DNA of 64,000 nt from Bradyrhizobium sp. CER78 (GTDB lineage: Bacteria; Pseudomonadota; Alphaproteobacteria; Rhizobiales; Xanthobacteraceae), in assembly GCF_029846235.1 (NCBI RefSeq), contig NZ_JARVWP010000008.1, positions 124,001 through 188,000 on the forward strand, given 5' to 3'. A program made the translations under genes and the position numbers. This document shows, piece after piece, positions 21,752 to 37,203 of the stretch (the stretch's first letter is position 1; each line of letters starts with the position of its first letter). Under the pieces are notes generated by a model. That model was not told the origin of the DNA. It saw nothing but the letters and a program-made list of their open reading frames with translations, and made no database searches.

Positions 21752-23146
21752 ATGACGGGTCCGGGTGGACGGCATGTCATCATTGTCGGCGGAGGCGCCA
21801 GTGGTGTCTTGCTAACCTATCAGCTGCTGCACCGTTCGTCGTGCAGCCTCCGTGTCACGCTGATTGAGCAACGTCCGGATATCGGCCGCGGTATCGCTTA
21901 CCACACCGGAAATCCGGATCATTTGCTCAATGTCCGAGCTGCCAATATGAGCGCGTTGCCGGATCAGCCGGATCACTTCTGGCGTTGGCTGGTTTCGCGG
22001 CAGGACGGCATACCGATATGTCCTGATCCCTATTGCTTCGTTCCCCGACGGGTCTACGGCGATTACATCGCGAGCCTGCTCGATCGCGGTGCGTCGGATT
22101 GTGCAGACGAGCAACGCCTTACGATCGTTCACAGTAGGTGCATCGATGTGAGTAGTGGCCCGGATGAGGCGGTCGCCGCGCTTGAGGACGGCCGCCGCAT
22201 TGTCGGCGATACCATCGTTCTCGCCACCGGACACGATATGCGCGCCAGCAGTCCAGGGCGCGTGGATCCATGGACGCCGCCATCGGCTGCACCAATCGAC
22301 GTCAACGCCGCCGTCCTGATCCTCGGAACAGGGCTCACAATGGTCGACTATGTCCTGTCCTTGCTACGTGACGGGCACCGTGGGCCGATCATCGCGACGT
22401 CGAGGCGGGGCTTGCTCGCCAGACCGCACCGCCGGGTCGATTCGATGCGCATCGCGGAAGCCGAGGTTCCTTTCGGCGCAAGCATCGCCACCCTGCTGAG
22501 TTGGATCCGCGCGCGTGTTGCTCAGCATGCTGCGCAGGGCGGCGACTGGCGCGGTGTCATTGATGGCCTCCGGCCCTACACGCAGCGGCTTTGGCACGAA
22601 CTCCCGCTCTCATCCAAACGCCGCTTCCTCGAGCATGCGCGCGCCTGGTGGGACGTTCATCGGCACCGGATGGCACCGGAATTGGAGTCCCGCATCACTG
22701 CGGCTCTATTCAGCGGGCAGCTAAACCTTATGGCAGCGAAAGTAATCAAGATCGAGCCTAACCGCGACGGCGCCAAGGTGACCTACCGACGGCGCGGGGC
22801 TGCCGAGACACACCATCTGCAAGTCGGCGCCGTGGTTGATTGCACGGGAATCGTAAAGGATCCTACCGCCACGCCCAATTCGGCGGTACGTAGCCTGTTC
22901 GAACGGGGACTGGCGTGCGTCGATCCGCTCCGCATCGGCATCGAGATTCATCCCAGTTGCGCAATCGTCGACAGTGAAGGCGTCCCCTCCGAGCGCCTGT
23001 TCGCGGTGGGACCGTTGACTCGCGCTACCTTCTGGGAAATCATCGCAATCCCCGACATCCGAAATCAATGTGCCGAGCTCGCTGCCCTGCTCTCCCGAGA
23101 AGAAACAGGGCAGCTCCCTACCCGCCGTGAACTCTCGAATGTCTAG
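21752..23146 (+). CDS. FAD/NAD(P)-binding flavoprotein (NAD_binding_9 / YdhS-like)
   Basis: A protein of 464 residues. It has an N-terminal FAD-binding 'VIIVGGGASGVLLTYQLL' followed by the hallmark of this family, 'GRGIAYHTGNPDHLLNVRAA', and a second dinucleotide site at 'AAVLILGTGLTMVDYVLSL'. The C-terminal part has 'VDCTGIVKDPT'. Members include E. coli YdhS and proteins near siderophore or sulfur genes; the reaction is unknown, perhaps oxygenation or disulfide chemistry. I chose the ATG at 21752 because of the 'GGAGGAG' ribosome site. Its stop and the stop of the convergent metQ-like gene share one CTAG. Confidence 0.8.
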   Translation: MTGPGGRHVIIVGGGASGVLLTYQLLHRSSCSLRVTLIEQRPDIGRGIAYHTGNPDHLLNVRAANMSALPDQPDHFWRWLVSRQDGIPICPDPYCFVPRRVYGDYIASLLDRGASDCADEQRLTIVHSRCIDVSSGPDEAVAALEDGRRIVGDTIVLATGHDMRASSPGRVDPWTPPSAAPIDVNAAVLILGTGLTMVDYVLSLLRDGHRGPIIATSRRGLLARPHRRVDSMRIAEAEVPFGASIATLLSWIRARVAQHAAQGGDWRGVIDGLRPYTQRLWHELPLSSKRRFLEHARAWWDVHRHRMAPELESRITAALFSGQLNLMAAKVIKIEPNRDGAKVTYRRRGAAETHHLQVGAVVDCTGIVKDPTATPNSAVRSLFERGLACVDPLRIGIEIHPSCAIVDSEGVPSERLFAVGPLTRATFWEIIAIPDIRNQCAELAALLSREETGQLPTRRELSNV

Positions 23147-23940
23147 CTGCTGAAGCCAGCGGGAATGAACGCCGGCAGCTTCTCCTCGATAAATTTCTTG
23201 ACCTCGGGCGAATTGAAGACCTGGATGAACGCTTTCAGGCGGGGATCATCCTTCTTGTCCGGCCTCGCCGTGAACCGCAGGACCAACCCGTCGTCCACGG
23301 TGCGGTCGATGACCAGTGCCGATTTCGGATCGCCGCCGGCTGGAATCAGATAGGTGATGTTGACCAGCGCCAACGTCACGTCGTCGAGCGATCGGTAGGT
23401 CTGCGCCGGATCGAGCTCGACGATCTTCAGGTTCTTCGGGTTCTCGATGATGTCGAACCGGCTCACCGAAAAGCCCTTGCCCGGCGCCAGCTTGATCAGC
23501 CCGGCGCGTTCGAGCAGGATCAGGCCCCGCGCGCCGTTCAGCGGCTCGTTCGGGATCGCAACGCTGTCGCCGGACTTGATCTCGTCGAGCGACTTGATCT
23601 TCTTCGAAAACAGCCCGACCGGCGCGATCACGCCGACCTTGTCGACCTGGACCAGGTTGAAGCCGCGCTGCTTGTTCTGGATCGCGAGATACGTTCCGTG
23701 CTGGAACAGATTGGCGTCGACGTCACCGCTGTTCACCACCTCATTCAGCGCGACCCAATCCGACAGCTCGACGATCTTGACGTCCTGGCCCTTGTCCTTG
23801 GCGATCTTGGCGGCAAACGCTGCTAGCTGACCGACCGGTCCGGCGCTGGTCGCGATCTTGAGAGGCTCGTCGGCAACAGCGACCGCAGTCATGGCAAGCA
23901 GCACGCCGGCCGCCTGCACTAGGCGCAACAATGTCTTCAT
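23143..23940 (-). CDS. metQ: MetQ/NlpA-family substrate-binding protein (copy 1)
   Basis: A protein of 265 residues. It has a cleavable signal peptide (about 1-23, 'AVAVADEP') without a lipobox cysteine, then the NlpA fold: 'LKIATSAGPVGQL', 'VNSGDVDANLFQHGTYLAIQ', 'VAIPNEPLNGARGLILLERA'. The family binds D- or L-methionine or related compounds for a MetNI transporter. It lies 33 bases downstream of metY on the same strand and probably shares its message; there are no permease or ATPase genes beside it, so it may use the MetNI encoded at 28.8-30.6 kb. It is more divergent from copies 2 and 3 than they are from each other. Confidence 0.85.
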   Translation of the reverse strand: MKTLLRLVQAAGVLLAMTAVAVADEPLKIATSAGPVGQLAAFAAKIAKDKGQDVKIVELSDWVALNEVVNSGDVDANLFQHGTYLAIQNKQRGFNLVQVDKVGVIAPVGLFSKKIKSLDEIKSGDSVAIPNEPLNGARGLILLERAGLIKLAPGKGFSVSRFDIIENPKNLKIVELDPAQTYRSLDDVTLALVNITYLIPAGGDPKSALVIDRTVDDGLVLRFTARPDKKDDPRLKAFIQVFNSPEVKKFIEEKLPAFIPAGFSS

Positions 23941-23973: not shown

Positions 23974-25299
23974 TCAGGCCGCCTTGCGGCTGCTGCCGCC
24001 GGCCTCCGCCTGGGCCAATGCCTGGGTGAGGTCGGCGAGGATGTCGTCGGGATGCTCGATGCCGACCGAAAGCCTGATGTAACCGGGCGTCACGCCCGCC
24101 GCGAGCTGCTCCTCGGCGCTGAGTTGCTGATGGGTGGTCGACGCCGGGTGGATCGCCAGCGACCGCGCATCGCCGATATTGGCGACGTGATAGAACAGTT
24201 TCAGCGCATCGATGAAGCGACGGCCGGCCTCGACGCCGTCCTTCAGCTCGAAACCGACCAGCGCCCCATAGCCACCCTTGAGGTAGAGATCCGCACGGCG
24301 CCGGTTTTCCCCGCTTTGCTGACCGGGGAAGATCACATGCGAGATGGAGGGATGCCGTGCCAGGAAGTTCGCGACCTTGATCGCGTTCTCATTGTGCTGG
24401 CGCAGCCGCAGCGGCAGGGTCTCCAGCCCCTGGATGAACTGGAACGCGTTTTGCGGAGCGATCGCGGCGCCGAGATCGCGCAGCAGCTTGACGCGTGCAC
24501 GCAGGATGTAGGCGATCGGGCCCAGCGGCTTGGCGGCTTCGGTCCAGATCGCGCCATGATACGCATCGTCCGGCTGCGTCAGCAGCGGGAACCGCTCGGC
24601 ATGCGCCGCCCAATCGAAATTGCCACCGTCGATGATCGCACCGCCGATCGAGGTGCCATGGCCGCCGATATATTTCGTAGTGGAATAGACCACGATCGCC
24701 GCGCCATGATCGAACGGGCGCGCGATCAGCGGCACTGCCGTGTTGTCGAGAATGAGCGGCACGCCGAGTGAACGCCCGATATCCGCAACCTCTCGGATCG
24801 GGAACACGTTGAGCTTGGGGTTCGGCAAGGTCTCGGCGAAGTAAGCTCGGGTCTTCGCGTCGGTGGCACGGCGGAAATTCTCCGGATCGGCCGGATCGAC
24901 GAAGCGGACCTCGATGCCGAACTGCTTCAGCGTCTGCGACAGCAGCGTCCAGGTGCCGCCATAGAGATCGGTCGACGAGACGATGTTGTCGCCGGCCTGC
25001 GCGATGTTGAAGATCGCGTAAGCCGTCGCCGACTGGCCCGACGCTACTGCCAGCGCCGCCACGCCGCCCTCCAGCGCAGCCAGGCGCTCCTCGAACGCGT
25101 CGGCCGTCGGGTTCTTGATCCTGGTATAGATCTGGCCGAGCGCCTCCAACGCGAACAGCCGTGATGCGTGATCGGTGCTCTCGAATTGATAGGATGTCGT
25201 CTGATAGATCGGAACCGCCACGGCTCCCGTCGCCGGGTCCGACCGATATGAACCGCCGTGCAAGGCGAGCGTCTCGACATTCTTGGTTTCGATCGGCAT
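23974..25299 (-). CDS. metY: O-acetylhomoserine aminocarboxypropyltransferase / sulfhydrylase
   Basis: A 441-residue PLP enzyme of the Cys/Met metabolism family. The sequence includes 'YTRIKNPTADAFEERLAALE', 'SSTDLYGGTWTLL', the aspartate in 'LILDNT', and the PLP lysine K209 in 'YSTTKYIGGHG'. It makes homocysteine from O-acetylhomoserine and sulfide, or methionine when methanethiol is used, so it can capture sulfur released by the monooxygenases nearby. The ATG at 25299 is preceded by 'AGGAG' at good spacing. It is followed by a metQ-like gene. I looked for a SAM-II riboswitch upstream and did not see one. Confidence 0.93.
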   Translation of the reverse strand: MPIETKNVETLALHGGSYRSDPATGAVAVPIYQTTSYQFESTDHASRLFALEALGQIYTRIKNPTADAFEERLAALEGGVAALAVASGQSATAYAIFNIAQAGDNIVSSTDLYGGTWTLLSQTLKQFGIEVRFVDPADPENFRRATDAKTRAYFAETLPNPKLNVFPIREVADIGRSLGVPLILDNTAVPLIARPFDHGAAIVVYSTTKYIGGHGTSIGGAIIDGGNFDWAAHAERFPLLTQPDDAYHGAIWTEAAKPLGPIAYILRARVKLLRDLGAAIAPQNAFQFIQGLETLPLRLRQHNENAIKVANFLARHPSISHVIFPGQQSGENRRRADLYLKGGYGALVGFELKDGVEAGRRFIDALKLFYHVANIGDARSLAIHPASTTHQQLSAEEQLAAGVTPGYIRLSVGIEHPDDILADLTQALAQAEAGGSSRKAA

Positions 25300-25712
25300 T
25301 TCCAAATCTCCTGCAATCCGGTGATCAGCATCAAACGCAACGAATGATGCGCAGCAGCGCTTGCGGCTGTCGAGGCGTCGGAGAAAATAGCGATGCGCGT
25401 GCTGGCGGCACGTCTGATCACGTCGCGAATTTTTCAGCGCGTGCCCCGCTCGCGTTGCATTTGTTTCGCTGCGCCCTGCGCTCGGCGGATCCGCCGCACG
25501 TTATTGCTCCGGCCGATCGCATTCGCAAATCAGCGCGCGATGCCGGACATGCCGACCATTGTGGACGATGCGGCAATGTCGAACAAACCAATCCCTGCTG
25601 CGCCGGACGAGAGACGGAGCACGATCTTGATCCAGCCACGCATAATAGAAAATAAAGCCGCACAGGTGGCGTGCTAAATGACTTGCAGTCCCCAACTGCC
25701 GGAAATCGCGCG
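25300..25712. other. Divergent promoter region, metY / NtaA-type monooxygenase
   Basis: About 410 bases between two divergent sulfur genes. Short open frames inside look non-coding. Promoters for both genes must be here; no clear -35/-10 pair, riboswitch or long inverted repeat could be assigned. Confidence 0.4.
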
Positions 25713-27113
25713 ATGACCAGACCGAAAGAGCTTCGTTTCAACGCGTTCAACATGATGGCGCCGAGCCACAACTGGGCGGGCCTGTGGTCGCATCCGCGCG
25801 ACACCTCACTCGACTACAACACGCTCGACTATTGGGTGAACTATGCCCGGACGGCCGAACGCGGCCTGCTCGACGGCATCTTCCTGGCTGACGTGTTCGG
25901 CATCTATGACGTCTACGGCGACAGCCCCGAAACCGCGCTGCGTCACGCCGTTCAACTGCCAAACGCCGAGCCGACCCTGCTCGTCTCCGCCATGGCACAC
26001 GCGACAAAGCATCTCGGCTTCGGCATCACGTCCAACCTTACCTACGAACATCCTTACCAGCTCGCCCGCCGTTTCTCGACCCTCGATCACCTCTCGCGTG
26101 GCCGGATCGGCTGGAACATCGTCACCGGCTATCTCGACAGCGGTGCCCGCGGCATGGGCCTTGCCGCCAATCGCGCGCATGATGAGCGCTATGAGGCGGC
26201 GGAAGAGTTTCTCACGGCGAGCTACAAGCTGTGGGAAGGCAGCTGGGAGGACGGCGCCGTCCGCCGCGATCGCGCGGCGCGGATCTTCACCGATCCGGCC
26301 AGAATCCATCCCGTGCGGCATCAGGGACGTCACTACCAGATCGACGGCATCCACCTCGCCGAGCCGTCGCCACAGCGCACGCCGCTGCTCTATCAGGCAG
26401 GAACCTCAAAGCGGGGCCGCGCCTTCGCGGCCCGGCATGCGGAGGCGATCTTCCTTAACGGCCAGACCAAACCGATCCTGGCCCGCGCCGTGCGCGAGAT
26501 CAGGGAGGCTGCCCGGGAATTCGGACGCGATCCCTATGACATCCGCCTGTTCGCCGGCGCGACCGTGGTCGTCGCACCGACGCGTGCCGAGGCCAACGAT
26601 TTGCTCGTGGAGTACGCAGAGCATGTCGATCAGGCCGGCCAGCTTGCCTTGCTCTCGGGATGGACCGGCATCGATTTCTCGAAATATCGCCCGGACCAGG
26701 CGGTGCAATATGTCGAGAGCAACGCGATCCAGTCGATGGTGGAGAATTTCACGTTGCGCAGCGACCGGCCGGTCAAGGTCGGCGATCTCGCGACCCTGAG
26801 CCGGGTCGGCGCGCGCTCCCCGTTCGTGGTCGGCTCGCCGCAGGATGTGGCGGACGAGCTGATCACCTGGGTCGATGAAACCGATGTCGATGGCTTCAAC
26901 CTGTTCCGCCTGGTTGCGCCGGAATCGCTGACGTCGTTCGTCGACCTGGTCGTGCCGGAACTGCAGTCACGCGGGGTCTACAAGACGGCCTATCGCGAAG
27001 GCACGCTGCGCGAAAAGCTGTTTCCCGGACGCGGGCCCTATCTCGACGCCACGCATCCCGGCGCCGGTTTCCGCCGCGTCCCCTCGACAACGCATGCTGA
27101 CGCCGCCGAATAG
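25713..27113 (+). CDS. NtaA/SnaA/DszA-family FMNH2-dependent monooxygenase (1)
   Basis: A protein of 466 residues with the luciferase-like barrel of the NtaA/DmoA/DszA branch. Blocks are 'NMMAPSHNWAGLWSHPRDTS', 'ARTAERGLLDGIFLADVFG', 'FSTLDHLSRGRIGWNIVTGY' and 'PLLYQAGTSKRGRAFAARHA'. Family members cleave C-S or C-N bonds using reduced FMN from a separate reductase; known substrates include dimethyl sulfide, DBT sulfone and nitrilotriacetate. The ATG at 25713 follows 'GGAAATCGCGCG'. It is divergent from metY and convergent with the MetQ operon. The substrate is uncertain; sulfur context argues for a thioether or sulfone. Confidence 0.9.
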   Translation: MTRPKELRFNAFNMMAPSHNWAGLWSHPRDTSLDYNTLDYWVNYARTAERGLLDGIFLADVFGIYDVYGDSPETALRHAVQLPNAEPTLLVSAMAHATKHLGFGITSNLTYEHPYQLARRFSTLDHLSRGRIGWNIVTGYLDSGARGMGLAANRAHDERYEAAEEFLTASYKLWEGSWEDGAVRRDRAARIFTDPARIHPVRHQGRHYQIDGIHLAEPSPQRTPLLYQAGTSKRGRAFAARHAEAIFLNGQTKPILARAVREIREAAREFGRDPYDIRLFAGATVVVAPTRAEANDLLVEYAEHVDQAGQLALLSGWTGIDFSKYRPDQAVQYVESNAIQSMVENFTLRSDRPVKVGDLATLSRVGARSPFVVGSPQDVADELITWVDETDVDGFNLFRLVAPESLTSFVDLVVPELQSRGVYKTAYREGTLREKLFPGRGPYLDATHPGAGFRRVPSTTHADAAE

Positions 27114-27154: not shown

Positions 27155-27931
27155 TCACCAGGTCGCGATATAGGTGCCTTTGAAGCGCTTCTCGAGGAAC
27201 GCCTTCACCTCGTCGGAGTGATAGGCGTCGATCAACTGCTTGACCCAGGGCTTGTCCTTGTCTTCGTCGCGGACGGCAAGGATGTTGACCCACGGGCCAT
27301 CGGCCGCCTCACGGGCAATCGCGTCGGTGGCAGGATTGAGCCCAGCCTGAACCGCATAATTGTTGTTGATCGAGACCAGATCGACGTCCTGCAGCGACCG
27401 TGGCAGCTGCGCGGCATCGAGCTCGACGAAGCGCAGATGCTTCGGATTGTCGGTGATATCGGCGATGGTCGAGGCGACGTTGTTCGGATCCTTCAGCTTG
27501 ATCACGCCGTGCAGCGCCAGGATCATCAGCCCGCGCGCACCGTTGGACGGATCGTTGGCGATCGCCACCCGTGCGCCGTCCGGAAGATCGGCCAGCTTCT
27601 TGTACTTCAGGGAGTAGACGCCCTGCGGCGAGGCAATCGTATTGGCGACCTTGGCGATCTTCCAGCCGGTCTTGGACAGCTGGTTCTTCAGATAGGGCTC
27701 GTGCTGGAACGAATTGGACTCGAGATCCCCGAGCGCGAGCGCCTGATTCGGGATCACGTAGTCGGTGAATTCGACCACCTTGACGTCGAGCCCGTGGCCG
27801 GCGGCCACCTTCTTCACGACGTCAAGGATCTCGGCATGGGGCCCGGCCGTGACGCCGACCCGGATGGTGTCGGCCGTTGCCGCGCCGGTCAAGAGCGCTG
27901 CGACGGCAAGTGCGGTCATCAGGATACGCAT
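27155..27931 (-). CDS. metQ: MetQ/NlpA-family substrate-binding protein (copy 2)
   Basis: A protein of 258 residues. It has a signal peptide (about 1-21, 'TGAATADT') with no lipobox cysteine, so it is likely a free periplasmic protein. NlpA blocks are 'RVGVTAGPHAEILDVVKKVA', 'FQHEPYLKNQ', 'VAIANDPSNGARGLMILALH' and 'VSINNNYAVQAGL'. It is the last gene of a six-gene operon with the AprA-like flavoprotein, ferredoxin, metN, metI and another metQ (29 bases after copy 3). ATG at 27931 with 'GAGG' upstream; a TTG directly before it is not needed. Confidence 0.9.
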   Translation of the reverse strand: MRILMTALAVAALLTGAATADTIRVGVTAGPHAEILDVVKKVAAGHGLDVKVVEFTDYVIPNQALALGDLESNSFQHEPYLKNQLSKTGWKIAKVANTIASPQGVYSLKYKKLADLPDGARVAIANDPSNGARGLMILALHGVIKLKDPNNVASTIADITDNPKHLRFVELDAAQLPRSLQDVDLVSINNNYAVQAGLNPATDAIAREAADGPWVNILAVRDEDKDKPWVKQLIDAYHSDEVKAFLEKRFKGTYIATW

Positions 27932-27960
27932 CAATCTATCCTCGATAGTTGGATCGGCGA

Positions 27961-28755
27961 TTACCAGCTCGGCAACACCGCGCCCTTGAACTTCGTGAGG
28001 ACGAATTCCTTGACCTCGGGCGTGTGGTAGCTATCGACCAGGATCTTGACCCACGGCTTGTCCTTGTCGGCGGAGCGAACCGCGATCAGATTGACGTACG
28101 GCCCCTTCGGATCTTCGCGCAGGATCGGATCCTTGACCGGATCGAGGCCGGCCTGCGTCGCGTAGTTCGTGTTGATGACCGCCGCATCGACATCGTCGAG
28201 CGCGCGGGGGGCCTGGGCGGCGTCGACCTCGACGAATTTCAGCCTCTTGGGGTTGTCAGTGATGTCGATGACGGTCGGCTTGAACCCAACATCGTTCTTC
28301 AGCTTGATCGCTCCCTTGTCGCGCAGCAGGAGCAGCGCCCGGCCGCCGTTGGTGGGATCGTTCGGAATCGAGACCTTGGCTCCCTCAGGCAGGTCGGCCC
28401 AACTCTTGTGCTTGCGTGAATAGATGCCGATCGGAAAATTGACCGTCAGCCCCACCTGCTCGATCTTGTAGCCGCGATCGGCCTTCTGGTTGTCCAAATA
28501 GGGCTGGTTCTGAAACGAATTGGCCTGGATGTCGCCGGCGTCGAGCGCGGCGTTGGGCACGACATAGTCCGAGAACTCGATGAGCTGGAGATCGAGCCCG
28601 CTCTTGGCCGCGATCGGCTTCACGGCCTCGAGGATCTGCGCATGCGGCCCGGGCGTCACGCCGATCTTGATCGTTTCAGCCGCAGCAGCGGTCGACCAGA
28701 CCGCAACAATGCTCGTGAGCGCGACAAAGGATCGAAACAACATCTTGGTCTCCAT
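27961..28755 (-). CDS. metQ: MetQ/NlpA-family substrate-binding protein (copy 3)
   Basis: A protein of 264 residues, closely related to copy 2 ('IGVTPGPHAQILEAVKPIAA', 'FQNQPYLDNQ', 'VSIPNDPTNGGRALLLLRDK', 'VINTNYATQAGL'). The signal peptide ends near 'TAAAAET' and lacks a lipobox cysteine. It lies 21 bases downstream of metI, as the binding protein of a MetNIQ importer normally does. Two binding proteins in one operon suggest two ligands for one permease. Confidence 0.92.
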   Translation of the reverse strand: METKMLFRSFVALTSIVAVWSTAAAAETIKIGVTPGPHAQILEAVKPIAAKSGLDLQLIEFSDYVVPNAALDAGDIQANSFQNQPYLDNQKADRGYKIEQVGLTVNFPIGIYSRKHKSWADLPEGAKVSIPNDPTNGGRALLLLRDKGAIKLKNDVGFKPTVIDITDNPKRLKFVEVDAAQAPRALDDVDAAVINTNYATQAGLDPVKDPILREDPKGPYVNLIAVRSADKDKPWVKILVDSYHTPEVKEFVLTKFKGAVLPSW

Positions 28756-28776
28756 GGAATAGAAATGGCTTTGGGA

Positions 28777-29442
28777 TCAGCGATTGCGCAAGCGACGATT
28801 GACGCGGCGCGCCAGATAGTCACCGGCGGTCTGCACGGTCTGCACCAGCGCGATCAGAACGACGACGACGGCCAGCATCATCTCAGGCATGAAACGCTGA
28901 TAGCCGTAGCGGATGCCGAGATCGCCGAGACCTCCCCCGCCGACCGCCCCGACCATCGCGGAGTAACCGAGCAAGCTGACGACCGCGAGCGTCAAGGCGA
29001 GCACCAGGCCCGGCAATGCCTCCGGGATCAGGACCTTGAACACGATCTGCAGCGGGCTCGCGCCGAACGAGGATGCCGTCTCGATCAGGCCGGCATCGAC
29101 CTCGCGGATCGCCGCCTCGACCAGGCGGGCGATGAATGGCGTCGCGGCGATGGTGAGCGGCACGATCGCCGCGCCCGAACCGATCGAGGTGCCGGCGATC
29201 AGGCGCGTAAAGGGGATGATCGCGACCACGAGGATGATGAACGGCGTCGAGCGCGCGGCATTGACGATCACGCCGAGAATGCCGTTGGCCGGCGGCGCAG
29301 CGAACAACTCGCCTTTCCGGCTGGTGGCAAGGAAGATTCCGAGCGGCAGGCCCAATATAGTCGCGACCAGGGCCGCGACAGAGACCATGAACAGGCTCTG
29401 GCCGGTGGCCTGAACGATCAGGTTGATGAGTTCACGCGACAT
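28777..29442 (-). CDS. metI: Methionine ABC transporter permease
   Basis: A protein of 221 residues, the normal MetI length, with five membrane helices. The ATPase-contact (EAA) loop is 'AIREVDAGLIETASSFGASP' followed by 'PEALPG'. The ATG at 29442 overlaps the end of metN by 11 bases and has 'GGAG' at good spacing; an ATG at 29469 is possible but lies deeper in metN. It forms the membrane part of an importer for methionine or related sulfur compounds. Confidence 0.93.
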   Translation of the reverse strand: MSRELINLIVQATGQSLFMVSVAALVATILGLPLGIFLATSRKGELFAAPPANGILGVIVNAARSTPFIILVVAIIPFTRLIAGTSIGSGAAIVPLTIAATPFIARLVEAAIREVDAGLIETASSFGASPLQIVFKVLIPEALPGLVLALTLAVVSLLGYSAMVGAVGGGGLGDLGIRYGYQRFMPEMMLAVVVVLIALVQTVQTAGDYLARRVNRRLRNR

Positions 29443-30556
29443 AGCCGAGACGCTCCACCAGAATGTCATGCTGAGAAAGATAGGCCAGGGCCTGTTTCGC
29501 CGCAGCTTCGCCGCCGGGAATGCCCAGGATCAAGGAGCCGACATGCTGGCCGCCGATCTCGTCGATCCGGGCCGACAGCAGCGCCACGTCATGGGACAGC
29601 TCGCGCGACACCCGCGCCACCACTGTGTCGCCGGCCTCGGTGCCTCGCACCTGGACGCGGAGCACCGCCTTGCCGCCGGCAACCGGCTGTGGCGACAGCC
29701 GGCTCGCCAGCGACACCGGAACGCTGTCGCCGATCGCCTCGGATAGGAACGCCTGCGTGACCGGATGCCGGGGATGCGTGAAGATGTCGGCGACACGGCC
29801 GCGTTCGACGACATGGCCGCCGTCGATCACCGCAACCTCCTTGGCGAGCTGGCGGACCACCGACATCTCATGTGTGATCAATACGATCGTGACACCGAGC
29901 TCGCGATTGATGTTGGCCAAAAGATCCAGGATCGCGCGCGTGGTCTGCGGATCGAGTGCCGAGGTCGCCTCATCGGACAGCAGCACGTTCGGCCGCGTCG
30001 CGAGCGCGCGCGCAATGCCGATGCGCTGCTTCTGGCCGCCGGACAGCTCGGAGGGATAGCGGTCGGACTTGTCGGCGATGCCGACGAGCGCGAGCAATTC
30101 CTCCACGCGAACCGCAATGTCGGCCCTGGACCAGCCAGCGATCTCGAGCGGCAGCGCGATATTGTCCGCCGCCGTCCGCGACGACAGCAGGTTGAAATGC
30201 TGGAAGATCATGCCGATCGAGCGCTGCGCCAGGCGCAGCTCGCGGCCGGCCAGCGCTGAGATCTCGCGGCCGTCGACGACGACGCGGCCGGTCGACGGCT
30301 TCTCGAGCCCGTTGATGAGGCGGACCAGGCTCGACTTGCCGGCACCGGAACGTCCGATCACACCGGTGATCGAGCCGCGCGCGATCGCGAAATCGATCGC
30401 CTGCAAGGCATGCACGCTCGGCTTGTCACGATAGGCCGGATAGACCTTCGAGACGCCCTCGAAGCGGATCATGGCATCGCTTGCATCCGATGCGAGCGAT
30501 ATCGACGGCAGCGGCGCGATAGGCTGCGCCGTCGTCAGGGATTGATGTACGTTCAT
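29432..30556 (-). CDS. metN: Methionine ABC transporter ATP-binding protein
   Basis: A protein of 374 residues. Walker A is 'GRSGAGKSS', the signature is 'LSGGQKQR', Walker B is 'VLLSDEATSAL' and the H-loop is 'LITHEMS'. The C-terminal 90 residues form the NIL regulatory domain that senses methionine ('VLRVQVRGTEAGDT' to 'SLILGIPGG'). The ATG at 30556 starts about 27 residues before the first ABC strand. The frame is open far upstream, but that part overlaps the ferredoxin gene and is a shadow. It is third in the operon, 50 bases after the ferredoxin gene. Confidence 0.93.
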   Translation of the reverse strand: MNVHQSLTTAQPIAPLPSISLASDASDAMIRFEGVSKVYPAYRDKPSVHALQAIDFAIARGSITGVIGRSGAGKSSLVRLINGLEKPSTGRVVVDGREISALAGRELRLAQRSIGMIFQHFNLLSSRTAADNIALPLEIAGWSRADIAVRVEELLALVGIADKSDRYPSELSGGQKQRIGIARALATRPNVLLSDEATSALDPQTTRAILDLLANINRELGVTIVLITHEMSVVRQLAKEVAVIDGGHVVERGRVADIFTHPRHPVTQAFLSEAIGDSVPVSLASRLSPQPVAGGKAVLRVQVRGTEAGDTVVARVSRELSHDVALLSARIDEIGGQHVGSLILGIPGGEAAAKQALAYLSQHDILVERLGYVA

Positions 30557-30606
30557 TCGGTCGGTCCAATTGGGAAATGGCTTCGGTCGCCGGGTACAGC
30601 CCGGAC

Positions 30607-30927
30607 TCAATGACCAAAGAGCAGATAGCTGCGGTCGATGCCGCGGAGATCGCGCGTCTCGTCGGTCCAGCCGACCGCGCGGCGGTAGCTGCCCAATACG
30701 GCGGTCTGCCGTAGCGCGACTATGTCGGTCGGACAAGGGGTATCTGCATGGGGCGAGACGTAAAGCGCATCCTCGGGACAATAGAGCTCGCAAAGAAAGC
30801 AGGTCTGGCAATCGCTCTGGCGGGCGATCACTGGAATTCCATCCGTCTTGTCGAAGACATTGGTCGGGCAGACATTCACGCAGATGTCGCAGGACGTGCA
30901 GCGTTCGGCATCGATCACCTCGATCAT
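30607..30927 (-). CDS. Two-[4Fe-4S] ferredoxin (AprB-like partner)
   Basis: A protein of 106 residues. It has two classical cluster motifs, 'CTSCDICVNVCP' (Cys 10, 13, 16, 20) and 'CQTCFLCELYCP' (Cys 40, 43, 46, 50), followed by a 55-residue tail. The spacing and the tail recall the beta subunit of APS reductase (AprB). The ATG overlaps the stop of the flavoprotein gene in an ATGA junction, so the two products very probably form one complex that passes electrons between the FAD protein and an unknown carrier. It is upstream of metN in the same operon. Confidence 0.9.
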   Translation of the reverse strand: MIEVIDAERCTSCDICVNVCPTNVFDKTDGIPVIARQSDCQTCFLCELYCPEDALYVSPHADTPCPTDIVALRQTAVLGSYRRAVGWTDETRDLRGIDRSYLLFGH

Positions 30928-32549
30928 TCCGCAGCCTCGGCGTAGCTGATGTCGGCATGCGGCCGGACCGCAGTCCAGACCTCGTCCAGGCCACCGCTCG
31001 TCAAATAATGGCGCAGCCGGTCGTCCTGATCGGGATGATCGTCGCGGCGATGCATGCCGCGGCTCTCGTGACGCGCCAGCGCGCTGCGATACATCCAGCG
31101 CGACGTCGCCAGCATGGCCGCGCTCTCGCGGGCGCGCAGCACATCGTCCTTGCTCGCTGCGTCGGCCGCCGATGCATCCGTCCACGCCGCATCGAGCCGC
31201 GCCAGTGCGCCCTCGAGGCGCGACGCGTGCCGGAAGTAATTCAGCTCATACGGATAGACCTCGTCCTGAACCGCCTTCGCCAGCGCGGCCGGCTCAAACG
31301 GGCGGCGCGACCGGCTTCGGAAGGCGACCGTCCCGGCGGAGGCCAGGTGTCGTCGCCGTGCCGGGCCAAGCTGCCGGGCATAGCCCGCCGCGCCCCAACC
31401 GGCCCAGGTCCCCGATGACATCGCCCAGGCGGCGTTGTGGCTGCCACCGCCGGTGAAGCCGCCGCAGATCAATTCGCGCGTAGCCGCATCGCCGGCGGCG
31501 TAGAGCCCCGGCACACTGGTGGCGCAGCTGTCGTCGACAATGCGAAGGCCTCCGGTGCCGCGCACGGTGCCTTCGAGTCGCAAGGTGACGGGGAAGCGCT
31601 CGCTGAAGGGATCAATGCCGGTGCGATCGAACGGCAGGAAGAAATTCGGCTGCGACGCGCGCATGTGCCGCTGAACGTCGACATCGGCTTTGTCGAGACG
31701 GGCATAGACCGGACCTTGCAGCAATGCGCGCGCGATCGCCGATCGCCCGCCCTTGGATGCCGCACCGGGAACCACGCTGCCGTCCTCGTAACTGAAGGTC
31801 GCCCAGCCATAGAACAGCGTCTTGGTCACCGAGCCGAATGCCGGCGAGATCGCATAGGGATTGGAGAACTCCATGCTGCTGAATTCGGCGCCGACCTCCG
31901 CGGCCATCAGATAGCCATCGCCGGTCAGCACGTTCGAGCCCAGCGTCTTGCTCAGGAAAGCGCAGCCGCCAGTCGCGATCACGACAGCGCTGGCTCGCAC
32001 GGTCCAGCCATCGTGCTTCTGGCGGCGCACGCCGCTGGCGCCCGCAACCGCGCCATCGTCGTCCACCAGCAGCTCCAACGCGGGGCTGTGATCCAGAATG
32101 GTGACGCCGGCCTGCTTGGTGCGCTTGCGCATCAGGCGCATATATTCCGGCCCTTGCAGCGAATTGCGCTGCGACTTGCCGCTGTCGTCGACGGGGTATG
32201 GGTAGCCCCAGGCCGCTAACCGATTGCTGTCCTCAAAGGTCTGGTCGAGCACGCGCGCCATCCAGCGGCGATCCTGCAGGTACCCGCCCATCTTTTCGCG
32301 ATTGGCCATCGCGGCCTCGCGCAGTGCCGGGTCGGGATCGACATACCAGACGCCCGTGCCTGCGGCTGCGGTGGCGCCCGACGTGCCGCAAAATCCCTTG
32401 TCGGCGAGTACAACGCGCGCGCCGCGCTCCGCGGCGCTCACCGCCGCCCAGGTGCCCGCCGGTCCGCCGCCGATCACCAGGACGTCAGCGTCGAATTCGA
32501 CCGCGCCATCCGGCGAGGTTCGCAGTTCGGCGCGTCCGTGGATTGTCAT
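30924..32549 (-). CDS. FAD-dependent oxidoreductase of the fumarate reductase / APS reductase alpha family
   Basis: A protein of 541 residues. It has 'VLVIGGGPAGTWAAVSAAER' at the N-terminus, 'FCGTSGATAAAGTGVW', a capping domain in the middle, and the second FAD block 'VPGLYAAGDAATRELICGG'. The C-terminal helical region has 'YELNYFRHASRLEGALARL', as in succinate dehydrogenase/fumarate reductase and AprA flavoproteins. It is not AprA of dissimilatory sulfate metabolism by context (no sat, dsr or aprM). It is first in an operon with a ferredoxin and MetNIQQ, so a redox step on an imported sulfur compound, or on sulfite, is a fair inference. The ATG at 32549 has 'GGAG' 10 bases upstream. Confidence 0.85.
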   Translation of the reverse strand: MTIHGRAELRTSPDGAVEFDADVLVIGGGPAGTWAAVSAAERGARVVLADKGFCGTSGATAAAGTGVWYVDPDPALREAAMANREKMGGYLQDRRWMARVLDQTFEDSNRLAAWGYPYPVDDSGKSQRNSLQGPEYMRLMRKRTKQAGVTILDHSPALELLVDDDGAVAGASGVRRQKHDGWTVRASAVVIATGGCAFLSKTLGSNVLTGDGYLMAAEVGAEFSSMEFSNPYAISPAFGSVTKTLFYGWATFSYEDGSVVPGAASKGGRSAIARALLQGPVYARLDKADVDVQRHMRASQPNFFLPFDRTGIDPFSERFPVTLRLEGTVRGTGGLRIVDDSCATSVPGLYAAGDAATRELICGGFTGGGSHNAAWAMSSGTWAGWGAAGYARQLGPARRRHLASAGTVAFRSRSRRPFEPAALAKAVQDEVYPYELNYFRHASRLEGALARLDAAWTDASAADAASKDDVLRARESAAMLATSRWMYRSALARHESRGMHRRDDHPDQDDRLRHYLTSGGLDEVWTAVRPHADISYAEAAE

Positions 32550-32864
32550 CGTTCTAGTCTCCAGGCGACACCGATCGCTCACAACGCGCCGCAGCAACAT
32601 CGTTACGCGTGCGTGCGCCTCTGGCAATTTCAGATATTTGCATGGACTTGGACGAAGCTTCCCCTGCCGCGGTCAGAAGAAGAATAATCATGCACCGGCG
32701 CGGAGGACGTTTCGTTTAACGCCGGAGAGGCACACGTGTTTTGTCCGACGAACCGCGCAGCGGAGGCGGGTATTTCTTTTTGTCTGCACGTGCCAGCCGT
32801 TCGTTCCCTTCTCGCGCGACAGGCGATATTTCGAAAAGACATCTCATCTCACTGCGTGGCAGCC
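32550..32864. other. Divergent promoter region, AprA-like operon / DszA-type monooxygenase
   Basis: 315 bases between two divergent sulfur genes, with no gene inside. The block 'TATTTCTTTTTGTCTGCA' at 32771-32788 resembles 'TATTTCTGTCTGCA' at 35450-35463 in the next divergent region, which may point to a shared promoter or operator. This is weak evidence. Confidence 0.35.
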
Positions 32865-34202
32865 ATGTCCGACCGTCAGCTTCATCTCAACGTCAATCTG
32901 CTGCATTCCGGCGTCTATGCGTCGGCCTGGCGGCTACCGGAAAGCGATCCGCGCGCCTGCTTCGACGTCGGCCACTACGTGCGGGTCGCGCAGATCGCCG
33001 AGCGCGGCAAGCTCGATGCAATCTTCCTGGCCGATACGCCTGCGATCACCGACCGAATCGACTACCGCTCGTTCATGTCGATGGAGCCGACGATCGTGCT
33101 GGCCAGCATCGCCGCGGCAACGACTCATATCGGCCTGATCGCAACCGCGTCGACGACCTATAACGAGCCCTACAATATCGCCCGCCGCTTCGCGACGCTC
33201 GATCTGGCAAGCGGCGGCCGTGCCGGCTGGAATGCGGTGACCACCGCCGACGCCACCGCCAGCCGTAATTTCGGTCTCGCCAACGTGCTCGAGCACAAGG
33301 CGCGCTACGACCGCGCCCAGGAGTTCGCCGAGGTCGTGCATGCGCTGTGGGACAGCTGGGAGGATGACGCCTTTGTCGGTGATAAGGCGACCGCGCGATT
33401 TGTCGACACATCGAAGGTGCATCCGATCGCGCACCGCGGCACGCACTACAGCGTCGCCGGCCCGCTCAACGTCCCGCGCTCGCCGCAGGGACGCCCGGTG
33501 ACGGTCCAGGCCGGCGGCTCCAGCGATGGCCGCGACCTCGCCGCCGCGCAGGCCGAAGCCGTGTTCACGCTGGCGCAGACCATCGACGAAGGCGCGGCCT
33601 ATGCACGCGATCTGCGCACGCGCGCCGCCGCCTATGGTCGGCCCGCCGATTCCATCGTCATCCTCCCTGGGCTTGCCACGGTCATTGGCAGCACCGAGAC
33701 TGAGGCCAAGCGGCGGCAGGATGAGCTCTGGGAGCTGGTTCCGATCGAATACAGCCTTGCCCGACTTGCCGGCACTTTGCAGGTCGATCCAGCCATCCTC
33801 GAGCTTGACAAGCCCCTGCCCGATCTCCCGCTGCCGGCCAATGCGAACCACACCATGTTCAAAGGCACGGTGGCGCTTGCCCGTCGCGGCAATCTCACCG
33901 TCCGACAATTGCTGCACGCGCTCGGCGGCGGTGTCGGCCATCGCATCATTGTCGGCACGCCGGAACTGATCGCCGACGACATCGAGGCCTGGTTCAACGC
34001 CGGCGCCGCCGACGGTTTCAACCTGATGCCGGACGTGCTGCCGACGGGACTGGAAGTCTTCGTCGACAACGTGGTGCCGATCCTGCAGCGGCGCGGACTC
34101 TTCCGCCGGGACTACGCCGGCACCACCCTGCGCGACCATCTTGGATTGCCGCGCCCGGCCAGCCGGTTTGCGCAGCGAGCGGCAGCGTGGGCGAGCGCCT
34201 GA
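32865..34202 (+). CDS. NtaA/SnaA/DszA-family FMNH2-dependent monooxygenase (2)
   Basis: A protein of 445 residues, close in layout to DszA (DBT-sulfone monooxygenase). Blocks are 'AQIAERGKLDAIFLADTPAI', 'FATLDLASGGRAGWNAVTTA', 'VHALWDSWEDDAF', 'GPLNVPRSPQGRPVTVQAGG' and the C-terminal 'GLFRRDYAGTTLRDHLGLPR', which matches the DszA ending very well. It needs reduced FMN from a separate reductase, possibly the one at 39.5 kb. The ATG at 32865 precedes the family start; the ribosome site is weak. It is a paralogue of the gene at 47.6 kb. Substrate unknown, likely a sulfone or thioether. Confidence 0.9.
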   Translation: MSDRQLHLNVNLLHSGVYASAWRLPESDPRACFDVGHYVRVAQIAERGKLDAIFLADTPAITDRIDYRSFMSMEPTIVLASIAAATTHIGLIATASTTYNEPYNIARRFATLDLASGGRAGWNAVTTADATASRNFGLANVLEHKARYDRAQEFAEVVHALWDSWEDDAFVGDKATARFVDTSKVHPIAHRGTHYSVAGPLNVPRSPQGRPVTVQAGGSSDGRDLAAAQAEAVFTLAQTIDEGAAYARDLRTRAAAYGRPADSIVILPGLATVIGSTETEAKRRQDELWELVPIEYSLARLAGTLQVDPAILELDKPLPDLPLPANANHTMFKGTVALARRGNLTVRQLLHALGGGVGHRIIVGTPELIADDIEAWFNAGAADGFNLMPDVLPTGLEVFVDNVVPILQRRGLFRRDYAGTTLRDHLGLPRPASRFAQRAAAWASA

Positions 34203-34207
34203 CGCCG

Positions 34208-35299
34208 TCAGCGCACGCCGGCCCGCACCGGCGTGTCGTTGGCGGCAACCGGCGCTGATGCGCGCACGCGCGGGATGACCTCCCTCGCAAAGCGCTCCAT
34301 CTCTGCCTCGAAAGGCTGAAACTGCAGCATGAACAACTCGATGCCGGCGGCATGAAAGGCTTGGATGCGGGCCGCCACCTCGTCGTAGCTGCCGACCAGC
34401 CCCGCGGCGGTTCCGCCATTGCTGCCGACCCGCGCCGATTTCTGCATGGTCTGCATCATCACGACCTTCGGATCGGTGTTCTGCTTCTGGATCGCCTTGA
34501 TCGGTGCATCCTTCTTCGACAGCTCGAGCAGTCGGTCATACGCCGCCTGAGCCTCGGCTTGTATCTCGCGCGCGATGACGAAGGCGGACAGACCGAAGCG
34601 CAGTGGCGTGGTGGCCCGTGACCGGGCCGCGACATCGGCGATCAGGCCAGCGACATCGTCCAGCGGCTGGCCGTTGATGAACCAGACGTCGCCGTGGTCC
34701 GCGACCAGCGCACGCGCCGGCTCCGATTCACCACCAACGTAAATCAACGGCCGAGACCGGTAGAGGCTCGCCGGACGCAGCGCATAATCGCGGACGTCGA
34801 AATGTTCGCCTTTATAGGTTAATCGCTCACCCTGCATCAGACGTGACACCACGGTGATCCACTCGCGCCCATAAGCATAGCGGGCATCGTGCTCGGCAAA
34901 ACCGATGCCGGCCTTGTCGAGCTCCGGCTTATTCCAGGCGTTGACCAGGTTGATGGCAAAACGACCGCGGCTGATGTTCTCGATGCCAAGTGCGAGCTTT
35001 GCGAGCACGACCGGATGATAAAGATAGGGCTTGATCGCAGCGATGATCTCGATCCGGCTGGTCAGCGCCGCAAGCGCCGCCGATGCGCTCCACGCTTCGA
35101 GCTGGTCGAGATCCTCCTGGTGCGGATTGATCGTGTGCTGCGCAATCAACGTTGAATCATAGCCGAGCCGCTCGGCGGCCAGCACGAGATCGCGATTGCG
35201 TTCCCAGGACGCATCATAAGGCTCGTCGGGATCCTGATAGGCGGCGCGCGAACCGTGCACCAGCGCCCAGATGCCAAAGCGGAGCGGTCGTGTCGTCAT
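34208..35299 (-). CDS. SsuD-like LLM flavin-dependent monooxygenase
   Basis: A protein of 363 residues of the alkanesulfonate-monooxygenase-like branch. Blocks are 'FGIWALVHGSR', 'AAERLGYDSTLIAQHTINPH', 'GIENISRGRFAINLVNAWNK', 'YGREWITVVSRLMQGE' and 'LIYVGGESEPARALVADHGD'. These enzymes desulfonate alkanesulfonates or alkanesulfinates to an aldehyde and sulfite with FMNH2 and O2. It is divergent from an SsuCBA transporter operon that also carries a flavin reductase, a natural supply of substrate and FMNH2. The ATG at 35299 has an 'AGGAGAG' ribosome site. It differs from true SsuD in several blocks, so the substrate may not be a simple alkanesulfonate. Confidence 0.88.
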   Translation of the reverse strand: MTTRPLRFGIWALVHGSRAAYQDPDEPYDASWERNRDLVLAAERLGYDSTLIAQHTINPHQEDLDQLEAWSASAALAALTSRIEIIAAIKPYLYHPVVLAKLALGIENISRGRFAINLVNAWNKPELDKAGIGFAEHDARYAYGREWITVVSRLMQGERLTYKGEHFDVRDYALRPASLYRSRPLIYVGGESEPARALVADHGDVWFINGQPLDDVAGLIADVAARSRATTPLRFGLSAFVIAREIQAEAQAAYDRLLELSKKDAPIKAIQKQNTDPKVVMMQTMQKSARVGSNGGTAAGLVGSYDEVAARIQAFHAAGIELFMLQFQPFEAEMERFAREVIPRVRASAPVAANDTPVRAGVR

Positions 35300-35591: not shown

Positions 35592-36458
35592 TTGAGCAAT
35601 CTCGAGCAGACGGCGTCACCAGTTGCGTTCGACGCCGCACCGCGCGGCGACACGACCGCCGCACATATTCCAAGGCGCAGGCTCGAGATTGGTCGGCGCG
35701 GCTTGCAGCTTCTGTCGTGGCTGGCGCCGGCCATCCTGCTTGTGGTCTGGGAACTCCTGGCACGGGGCGGATGGCTGTCACCGCAGGTGCTGCCGGCGCC
35801 GAGCAAGGTCATCGGGACGGCATTCAGGCTGACGACCTCGGGAAGCCTGCTGAACGATCTCGGCGTCAGCCTGCTGCGTGCCGTCGCCGGTTTCGCGATC
35901 GGTGGCGGCGTCGGTTTCGTGCTCGGCACCCTGGTCGGCTTCTCGCGGATCGCCGAGGCCGCGATCGACCGCAGCGTCCAGATGATCCGCGCCATTCCGT
36001 TCCTCGCCGCACTGCCGCTGGTGATCGTCTGGCTCGGCGTCGGTGAGGCCGAAAAGATCTTTCTCGTGGCGCTCGGCGTCACCTTTCCGATCTACATCAA
36101 CACCACGCTGGGAATCCGGCAGGTCGATCCGAAGCTGGTCGAGCTCGGCCGGGTCCAGGGCCTCGGCACGCTGGAGTTGATCCGCCGGATCGTCCTGCCG
36201 GGCGCATTGCCCTCGATCCTGACCGGCGTGCGCTATGCGCTCGCTACTGCGTGGCTGGCACTGGTGGTCGCTGAAACCATCGGCGCCCAATCCGGGATCG
36301 GTTTCCTTGCGATGGATGCGCGCGAGTTCCTGCGCACCGATGTAATCGTGCTAACGATCGTGATCTACGCGCTGATCGGTGTTGCGGCGGACGGCATCGC
36401 GCGCAGCCTCGAGCGACGGCTGTTGGCCTGGCATCCGAACTACGGGAGCGCGCGATGA
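35592..36458 (+). CDS. SsuC/TauC-type ABC transporter permease
   Basis: A protein of 288 residues with about six membrane helices. The coupling motif is 'ELGRVQGLGTLELIRRIVLP' followed by 'GALPSILTGVRYALATAWL', typical of sulfonate and taurine permeases. It starts with TTG at 35592; the next in-frame ATG lies well inside the protein, so TTG is the best start. It overlaps the ATPase gene by 4 bases and opens a six-gene operon ending with cysE. Confidence 0.9.
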   Translation: MSNLEQTASPVAFDAAPRGDTTAAHIPRRRLEIGRRGLQLLSWLAPAILLVVWELLARGGWLSPQVLPAPSKVIGTAFRLTTSGSLLNDLGVSLLRAVAGFAIGGGVGFVLGTLVGFSRIAEAAIDRSVQMIRAIPFLAALPLVIVWLGVGEAEKIFLVALGVTFPIYINTTLGIRQVDPKLVELGRVQGLGTLELIRRIVLPGALPSILTGVRYALATAWLALVVAETIGAQSGIGFLAMDAREFLRTDVIVLTIVIYALIGVAADGIARSLERRLLAWHPNYGSAR

Positions 36459-37183
36459 CCCTGCACGTCGTCCCCGCCCTTACCGCGGTCTCGCCCGCAG
36501 TGATGGTGACCAACCTCCGGCGCGCCTATGGCAATCGCGTCGTGATCGAAAACCTCAATCTGCGCATCGAGCGCGGCGAGTTCGTCGCCCTGCTCGGCGA
36601 GAGCGGTTGCGGCAAGACCACGCTGCTGCGCGCGCTCGCCGGGCTCGACCCGGTCGACGGCGGACGCATCGCAGCGCCCCGGCGGCCCGCGGTCGTGTTC
36701 CAGGAACATCGCCTGCTGCCATGGGACAGCCTGTGGCGCAACGTCTCGCTTGGCTTGCAGGTCGGCAATCCGCGTGATCGCGCCGCAACGGCACTCGCTG
36801 AAGTCGGCCTCGGCGACCGGCTCGACGACTGGCCACGGAACCTGTCCGGAGGGCAGGCACAGCGCGTGGCCCTGGCGCGCGCGCTGGTGCAGGAGCCTGA
36901 ACTCCTGCTGCTCGACGAACCCTTCGCCGCGCTCGACGCGCTGACACGCATCCGCATGCACGACCTCGTCCGCGAGCTCGTCGCCACCCATCGGCCCGGC
37001 GTGTTCCTGGTCACCCATGATGTCGACGAGGCGATCGCGCTGGCCGACCGCATCCTGGTGATGCGCGACGGCCGGATCGCCTTCGAGCATCGCACGCGTG
37101 GTCGCGGCGGAGCATCGATCGCCCGTACCGAGCTGCTCGCCGAGCTCGGCGTCGGCGCCACGCATCCCGCTCCTGCTGCCTGA
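36455..37183 (+). CDS. SsuB/TauB-type ABC transporter ATP-binding protein
   Basis: A protein of 242 residues. Walker A is 'GESGCGKTT', the signature is 'LSGGQAQR', Walker B is 'LLLLDEPFAALD' and the H-loop is 'LVTHDVDEAI'. The Q-loop is 'VVFQEHRLLPWDS', as in SsuB. It energises import of a sulfonate-like sulfur source together with the permease before it and the binding protein after it. ATGA overlap with the permease. Confidence 0.92.
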   Translation: MTLHVVPALTAVSPAVMVTNLRRAYGNRVVIENLNLRIERGEFVALLGESGCGKTTLLRALAGLDPVDGGRIAAPRRPAVVFQEHRLLPWDSLWRNVSLGLQVGNPRDRAATALAEVGLGDRLDDWPRNLSGGQAQRVALARALVQEPELLLLDEPFAALDALTRIRMHDLVRELVATHRPGVFLVTHDVDEAIALADRILVMRDGRIAFEHRTRGRGGASIARTELLAELGVGATHPAPAA

Positions 37184-37203
37184 TAATTTCAAGGACAAGC
37201 TTC

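Follow-up and report, generated by a model that had tools for sequence, protein, structure and literature searches.

Organisation of the operon and identity of its redox pair

The window analysed here, a stretch of 64,000 nucleotides from contig NZ_JARVWP010000008.1 of Bradyrhizobium sp. CER78 (genome size 7.97 Mb, spread over 39 contigs), harbours a run of six minus-strand genes at positions 27155-32549, which encode a flavin adenine dinucleotide (FAD) protein, a ferredoxin, the ATPase MetN and permease MetI of a methionine-type ATP-binding cassette (ABC) importer and two MetQ-type binding proteins (Table 1). All six open frames reported in a preliminary description of this DNA are present, and the spacings of -4, 50, -11, 21 and 29 bases given there are reproduced from the coordinates when the last gene is taken from its ATG start. 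The first of these values corresponds to a 4-base overlap of the FAD gene and the ferredoxin gene, while the frame of the last gene (27155-27934) opens with TTG, an ATG being available at 27931. We consider it likely that the operon unites an AsfAB redox pair for sulfonate sulfur with a methionine-type importer as part of a Bradyrhizobium sulfur-scavenging island. This explanation draws on gene order, family identity and tree position, as well as on the loss of fumarate-reductase residues, the exchange of transporters between genomes and the retention of methionine-contact residues in the binding proteins.

In scans against Pfam and NCBIfam, the FAD protein comprises the domains FAD_binding_2 and Succ_DH_flav_C, and the ferredoxin is of the 4Fe-4S dicluster type. 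All eight cysteines of the latter are conserved in 153 of 153 aligned rows, i.e. 152 rows from the surveyed loci (the window's own included) plus the query again, with sequences below 80 bits excluded. A search of the second replicon of Cupriavidus metallidurans CH34 with the FAD protein yields a single match at E ≤ 1e-20, which shows 65.6% identity over 97% and is followed directly downstream by a ferredoxin gene. According to passages of the cited literature, AsfA and AsfB of this strain are Rmet_4334/5 and asfRAB resides on the second chromosome (PMC2864759), strain S-313 of Pseudomonas putida lost the use of aromatic sulfonates upon insertion into asfA but still used aliphatic ones (PMC4267179, citing Vermeij et al. 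1999), and asfRABC is required for aromatic sulfonates (PMC10441942). Judged by sequence, the FAD protein and the ferredoxin are thus assigned to the AsfA/AsfB pair, a known kind and not a new enzyme. The sulfur-linked redox role suggested in the preliminary description is well supported by the genomic context; its suggestion of a new use for the enzyme pair has to be abandoned, because the pair matches AsfA/AsfB, which is already tied to arylsulfonate desulfonation.

The assignment agrees with a tree of 54 flavoproteins, obtained by a quick search with the Shimodaira-Hasegawa-like approximate likelihood ratio test (SH-aLRT) as the only support measure, with long-branch and composition warnings, and after removal of five near-duplicate rows. 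All 28 AsfA-like rows fall into a single group (SH-aLRT 100), to which AprA (8 rows), SdhA (7 rows) and NadB (2 rows) do not belong. The FAD protein is therefore separate from the usual succinate dehydrogenases and aspartate oxidases, and the close grouping with ordinary fumarate reductases that the preliminary description had named as a refutation of its hypothesis did not come about. Within the AsfA-like group, the window protein clusters with proteins of CH34, Azospirillum and Paracoccus (7 rows, SH-aLRT 98), and a wider set including Variovorax and Pandoraea comprises 13 rows (SH-aLRT 95).

The earlier label "AprA-like" is loose, as AprA scores below other NCBIfam matches. The highest-scoring models, those for a CoM/CoB fumarate reductase subunit, L-aspartate oxidase and SdhA/FrdA, themselves stay well under their cut-offs, and the adenylyl-sulfate reductase model NF005331 reaches 58 bits versus a cut-off of 557. 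The predicted structure of the FAD protein (mean predicted local distance difference test score 85.7, predicted template modelling score 0.90) is closest to fumarate reductase. Searches of the PDB place fumarate reductase or succinate dehydrogenase first, phosphoadenylyl-sulfate (PAPS) reductase high and AprA lower: the PAPS reductase of Methanothermococcus ranks 3rd by Foldseek and 9th by VIA-align, and AprA ranks 35th and about 40th, respectively. In the source genome, AprA has no match at E ≤ 1e-100 and DsrA has only one weak match (43 bits versus a cut-off of 393). For both markers tried, the reported absence of dissimilatory sulfate genes is therefore borne out. A dissimilatory adenylyl-sulfate (APS) reductase was rejected on account of the low score of the AprA model, the genome's lack of an AprA match and the separate tree groups.

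Gene order and transporters beside AsfAB-like pairs

In the genus Bradyrhizobium, 66 of 243 genomes contain a match to the FAD protein at E ≤ 1e-60, while 12 of 397 genomes do so in the phylum-wide spread, the source genome being counted in both cases. Fifty-seven of the 66 genomes, including that of the window, were read (omitted: G452, G453, G489, G528, G577, G582, G603, G620 and G639), and 8 of 59 matching plasmid records were taken into the survey, with two further plasmid regions standing outside the counts. Genes were labelled in 135 loci by means of profiles built from annotated neighbours. Because FAD pieces below 1200 bases, i.e. broken, frameshifted or cut genes, were dropped, nine of the 135 loci are without a row (L030, L049, L050, L096-L099, L104 and L178), one duplicate genome was removed (L141 equals L088), and L107-L130 (24 of 80 loci in the genome-contig scan) were omitted as other flavoproteins or short pieces. 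Broken asfA genes occur in several Bradyrhizobium genomes (L030, L049 and L050), and in seven Bradyrhizobium plasmid records from peanut the match is split into three pieces each. The 144 distinct full-length FAD genes counted comprise 48 Bradyrhizobium orthologues, 24 Bradyrhizobium paralogues (below 52% identity) and 72 loci of other genera. In a tight run, consecutive labelled genes are no more than 300 bases apart, so that any intervening unlabelled gene breaks it. This rule hid the paralogue loci L191-L195, and hence counts within 9 kb on any strand are given alongside.

The ferredoxin gene is adjacent to the FAD gene in 139 of the 144 loci (48/48 orthologues, 24/24 paralogues and 67/72 loci of other genera). 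MetN together with MetI occurs in the tight run of 28 of 48 orthologues, by reason of which the FAD-ferredoxin-MetN-MetI run is regarded as beyond chance, but in none of the 24 paralogues and none of the 72 loci of other genera; within 9 kb, the corresponding numbers are 29, 5 and 3. On the other hand, at least two SsuABC-type subunits are part of the tight run in 2/48 orthologues, 1/24 paralogues and 35/72 loci of other genera. Among the orthologues, MetNI is found in the tight run of 28 of the 31 with at least 82% identity and in none of the 17 with 75-80% identity, one of which has MetNI within 9 kb. Of the three closest orthologues that lack MetNI in the run, two (86% identity) feature TauD-SsuABC upstream in place of MetNIQ. 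As for the conservation of the complete six-gene order, which the preliminary description had put forward as a check, the exact run (gaps of at most 300 bases) recurs in 7 of 48 Bradyrhizobium orthologues, the window included. Outside the genus the pair is mostly found away from metNIQ, neither MetNI nor MetQ being part of a tight run with it in any of the 72 loci, which that description had named as grounds for giving up its hypothesis. A conserved six-gene unit as a rule beyond Bradyrhizobium was rejected accordingly.

Taken together, the counts for orthologues and other genera characterize the transporter as an exchangeable module, and the fact that even close orthologues differ in their transporter argues against a strict coupling of AsfAB to MetNIQ. 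The operon is a Bradyrhizobium variant of a known system in an unusual arrangement, of which there is no description in the titles and abstract starts among the matches listed for asfA with Bradyrhizobium or with MetQ/MetNIQ.

Several observations weigh against the explanation favoured here. With respect to the identity of the pair, the CH34 record is unannotated at the match, so that its naming as Rmet_4334/AsfA is by elimination; the direct comparison is with this CH34 protein, whereas the reported genetics concern AsfA of P. putida S-313. Moreover, a LysR-type asfR was not recognised within 9 kb of the CH34 pair either by eye or with a one-seed profile, despite the published asfRAB; in the window, an asfR-like gene was likewise not recognised with this profile, which is equally blank near the CH34 pair. 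In addition, the AsfA-like proteins range from 42 to 94% identity to the window protein and need not all share one job. With respect to the transporter, the persistence of MetNI in nearly all of the closest orthologues could mean a functional link. Furthermore, five of the 24 paralogues (L191-L195, 44-45% identity) have MetN, MetI and MetQ genes upstream of the pair in the same orientation, and MetQ of this group retains 7 of 7 contact residues. In these loci an LLM gene follows the ferredoxin gene. In L191, the one locus scanned, MetI and MetQ are separated by a class II aldolase-family gene, and MetQ and the FAD gene by an open frame of 482 aa lacking a Pfam match. This second group with MetNIQ upstream speaks for a link between AsfAB and MetNIQ: since MetNIQ stands beside two different AsfA groups, the importer-pair link stays alive in the genus, which lowers confidence in the favoured explanation and raises that in a dedicated pathway (see below).

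A second AsfA-like paralogue is present in many Bradyrhizobium genomes, often no more than about 20 kb from the first; such loci include L041, L045-L047, L164, L166-L170 and L172-L175, and each of the 24 counted paralogue rows has its own ferredoxin. In Paenibacillus and some actinobacteria (L034, L067, L068, L073 and L074), two AsfAB-like pairs flank an SsuA-type gene beside SsuC/SsuB genes, an arrangement that would suit a duplication of the pair to serve two substrates or two reaction steps.

AsfA chemistry, importer ligand and the surrounding island

How AsfAB would act on sulfur compounds can be read in several ways. One reading, which comes close to an even chance and is compatible with the favoured explanation, holds that AsfA and AsfB only supply electrons to a distinct oxygenase responsible for C-S cleavage; a review passage likewise describes AsfA as passing electrons to an oxygenase (PMC4267179). 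Among Bradyrhizobium loci with full flanks, an LLM, TauD or SfnB-type gene is indeed located within 9 kb in 43/45 orthologue and 7/10 paralogue loci, but this applies to only 21 of 51 full-flank loci of other genera. In 20 of these 51, SsuABC occurs in the run with none of the three oxygenase types within 9 kb, although their absence near a locus is weak evidence, as an SsuD-type enzyme need not be encoded close by in order to act. Furthermore, a NAD(P)H-binding part was not seen in AsfA, because the single Pyr_redox_2 match is partial (profile positions 2-119 of 291) and coincides with the FAD domain at the N-terminus. Besides, AsfA's solved relatives convert a substrate themselves: AsfA belongs to a superfamily of terminal oxidoreductases, of which AprA, PAPS reductase and fumarate reductase each reduce their own substrate.

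By analogy with the latter enzymes, AsfA may itself be the catalyst, its FAD being fed by AsfB and directly reducing a sulfonate or another oxidised sulfur compound, a reading that we put forward only tentatively. In a residue alignment separate from the tree, two histidines invariant in 10 SdhA rows are replaced in AsfA-like rows by Tyr (27/28) and by Glu or Asp (28/28), where AprA rows carry Tyr and Pro, and the invariant SdhA arginine in alignment column 529 has no AsfA-like counterpart. We take these three positions to be catalytic in SdhA, and a further SdhA histidine at the FAD site, which is Gly in the AsfA-like FAD protein, to be FAD-linking. Several His, Trp and Arg residues invariant in 10 AprA rows coincide with gaps or other residues in AsfA-like rows. 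Conversely, R330, R358, E359, N372 and W375 (28/28 each), as well as E/D326, are AsfA-like residues not found in the AprA and SdhA rows, and under direct reduction these six would form a new pocket in the fold. Since two different AsfA groups adjoin MetNIQ in Bradyrhizobium, AsfA of this genus may also have taken on a new role in which its substrate is a sulfur amino acid brought in by the importer.

A dedicated pathway along the lines of the preliminary description, in which AsfAB acts on the very compound imported by MetNIQ (for example methionine sulfoxide, a sulfone or another sulfur amino acid), appears doubtful. It would account for the single operon, for the retention of MetNI in the closest orthologues and for the same-strand MetN, MetI and MetQ of the five paralogues, and the exchange of His for Asn in the thioether pocket of MetQ 1 might suit an altered side chain. 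This reading is opposed by the scarcity of MetNI near the pair in other genera, by its absence from the run in the 17 orthologues of 75-80% identity and by the two orthologues with TauD-SsuABC instead; moreover, the operon encodes the only MetI matched in the source genome (E ≤ 1e-10) and may thus belong to a general methionine importer. Finally, the possibility that the pair is simply a ferredoxin beside the flavoprotein of an ordinary succinate dehydrogenase or fumarate reductase, as suggested by the best Foldseek and profile matches in the PDB, is exceedingly improbable and was rejected in view of the replaced or missing residues at catalytic positions and the separate tree group, and the source genome's own SdhA is located elsewhere.

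Regarding the importer, MetN possesses the NIL domain but remains below the equivalog cut-off of TIGR02314 (386 bits versus 499.7). Seven residues are named round methionine in MetQ of N. meningitidis in a passage of PMC6739813. MetQ 2 retains all seven and MetQ 1 six, with Asn in place of His at the thioether side, and the three residues gripping the amino-acid part of methionine are conserved in both proteins, the N-termini of which lack a lipobox cysteine. Because these contacts are kept, an amino acid such as methionine is a more likely ligand than an aryl- or alkylsulfonate, and the operon importer probably carries methionine or a close amino-acid analogue. The third MetQ of the window retains 5 of 7 residues, with Trp for a conserved Tyr and Leu for the key Asn; the Leu is common to 37 of 99 MetQ-type proteins of the surveyed loci, and this protein seems to belong to a distinct class that binds a different ligand.

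The operon forms part of an organosulfur-scavenging island (Table 1), which farther along includes a taurine-dioxygenase-type gene with its own importer.

Table 1. Operon genes and neighbouring organosulfur genes in the window
Feature	Position	Strand	Remarks and basis
AsfA-like FAD protein, 541 aa	30924..32549	-	FrdA/AprA/NadB superfamily; Pfam, NCBIfam, tree, alignment
AsfB-like ferredoxin, 106 aa	30607..30927	-	two CxxCxxCxxxCP motifs for two [4Fe-4S] clusters
MetN-type ABC ATPase with NIL domain	29432..30556	-	Pfam, NCBIfam
MetI permease	28777..29442	-	above NCBIfam cut-off
MetQ 1, methionine-type binding protein	27961..28755	-	NlpA/MetQ by Pfam, NCBIfam
MetQ 2, methionine-type binding protein	27155..27934	-	NlpA/MetQ by Pfam, NCBIfam
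LLM flavin monooxygenase, NtaA/DmoA family	25671..27113	+	neighbour converging on operon; NCBIfam
MetY-type O-acetylhomoserine sulfhydrylase	23974..25305	-	same island; NCBIfam
Third MetQ, altered ligand pocket	23143..23940	-	same island, beside MetY; Pfam, NCBIfam, contact residues
LLM flavin monooxygenase, NtaA/DmoA family	32736..34202	+	divergent from operon; NCBIfam
LLM monooxygenase, SfnG-like	34208..35245	-	under equivalog cut-off; NCBIfam
SsuC, SsuB, SsuA-type importer genes	35592..38205	+	start 3 kb from operon, opposite strand; NCBIfam
SfnB/DszC-like protein	38229..39458	+	under both cut-offs; NCBIfam

Further LLM-class monooxygenase genes are located at 19305-20480 and 47556-48896, the latter being a strong match to the NtaA/DmoA family. 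A 474-aa protein with an N-terminal glycine-rich nucleotide-binding motif is encoded at 21722-23146 and lacks matches to NCBIfam at E ≤ 1e-20. In Azospirillum (L031), too, a protein annotated as FAD/NAD(P)-binding is encoded near asfAB.

The genes of the island are probably induced together when sulfur is limiting. A precedent for such joint induction is the response of Rhodococcus qingshengii IGTS8 to dibenzothiophene, in which MetQ, MetN, MetY, an NtaA-type monooxygenase, SfnG and TauD proteins are up according to a passage of PMC8557817. MetNI, which in Bradyrhizobium is joined by one or two MetQ proteins, would then import its amino-acid ligand, while AsfAB would work on a separate sulfonate-type source, either in concert with the nearby LLM monooxygenases or by itself, electrons presumably passing from AsfB to the FAD of AsfA. 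According to the favoured explanation, the asfAB and metNIQ genes stand together because both serve sulfur scavenging.

In the literature passages considered, sulfonates are counted among the principal forms of organic sulfur in soil, and asfA serves as a marker of bacteria able to free sulfur from aromatic sulfonates (PMC4267179, PMC9694294). AsfAB-like pairs extend past the genera listed in these passages, for instance to Bradyrhizobium, Nostoc and Paenibacillus, and the passages on asf covered here report no biochemistry of AsfA. The chemistry of AsfA itself constitutes the point of real interest, on which loci that combine a transporter and AsfAB with no nearby oxygenase have a bearing.

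Comparison with known systems

The closest known counterparts are asfRABC of P. putida S-313 and asfAB of CH34, with which the window shares the succession of a flavoprotein gene and a dicluster ferredoxin gene in an organosulfur locus, as well as, in the case of CH34, 66% protein identity and a common tree group. Unlike these systems, the operon is equipped with MetNI and two MetQ proteins in place of an SsuABC/AsfC-type transporter, and an asfR-like regulator gene was not recognised in it with the one-seed profile. Dissimilatory AprAB resembles the pair in its FAD protein of the same superfamily and in its partner AprB, a two-cluster ferredoxin-like protein reminiscent of AsfB, but differs by its separate tree group and by the sulfur-scavenging context of AsfAB. 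The alpha subunit of PAPS reductase from Methanothermococcus thermolithotrophicus (PDB 8a8o) ranks high in structural similarity and, by its name, acts on an oxidised sulfur compound, yet it is archaeal and only about 19-20% identical to the AsfA-like protein. As a methionine importer, finally, the transporter conforms to MetNIQ in the MetI score above the NCBIfam cut-off and in the contact residues kept by both MetQ proteins, whereas the lower score of MetN, the missing lipobox cysteines and the presence of a redox pair in the same operon set it apart.

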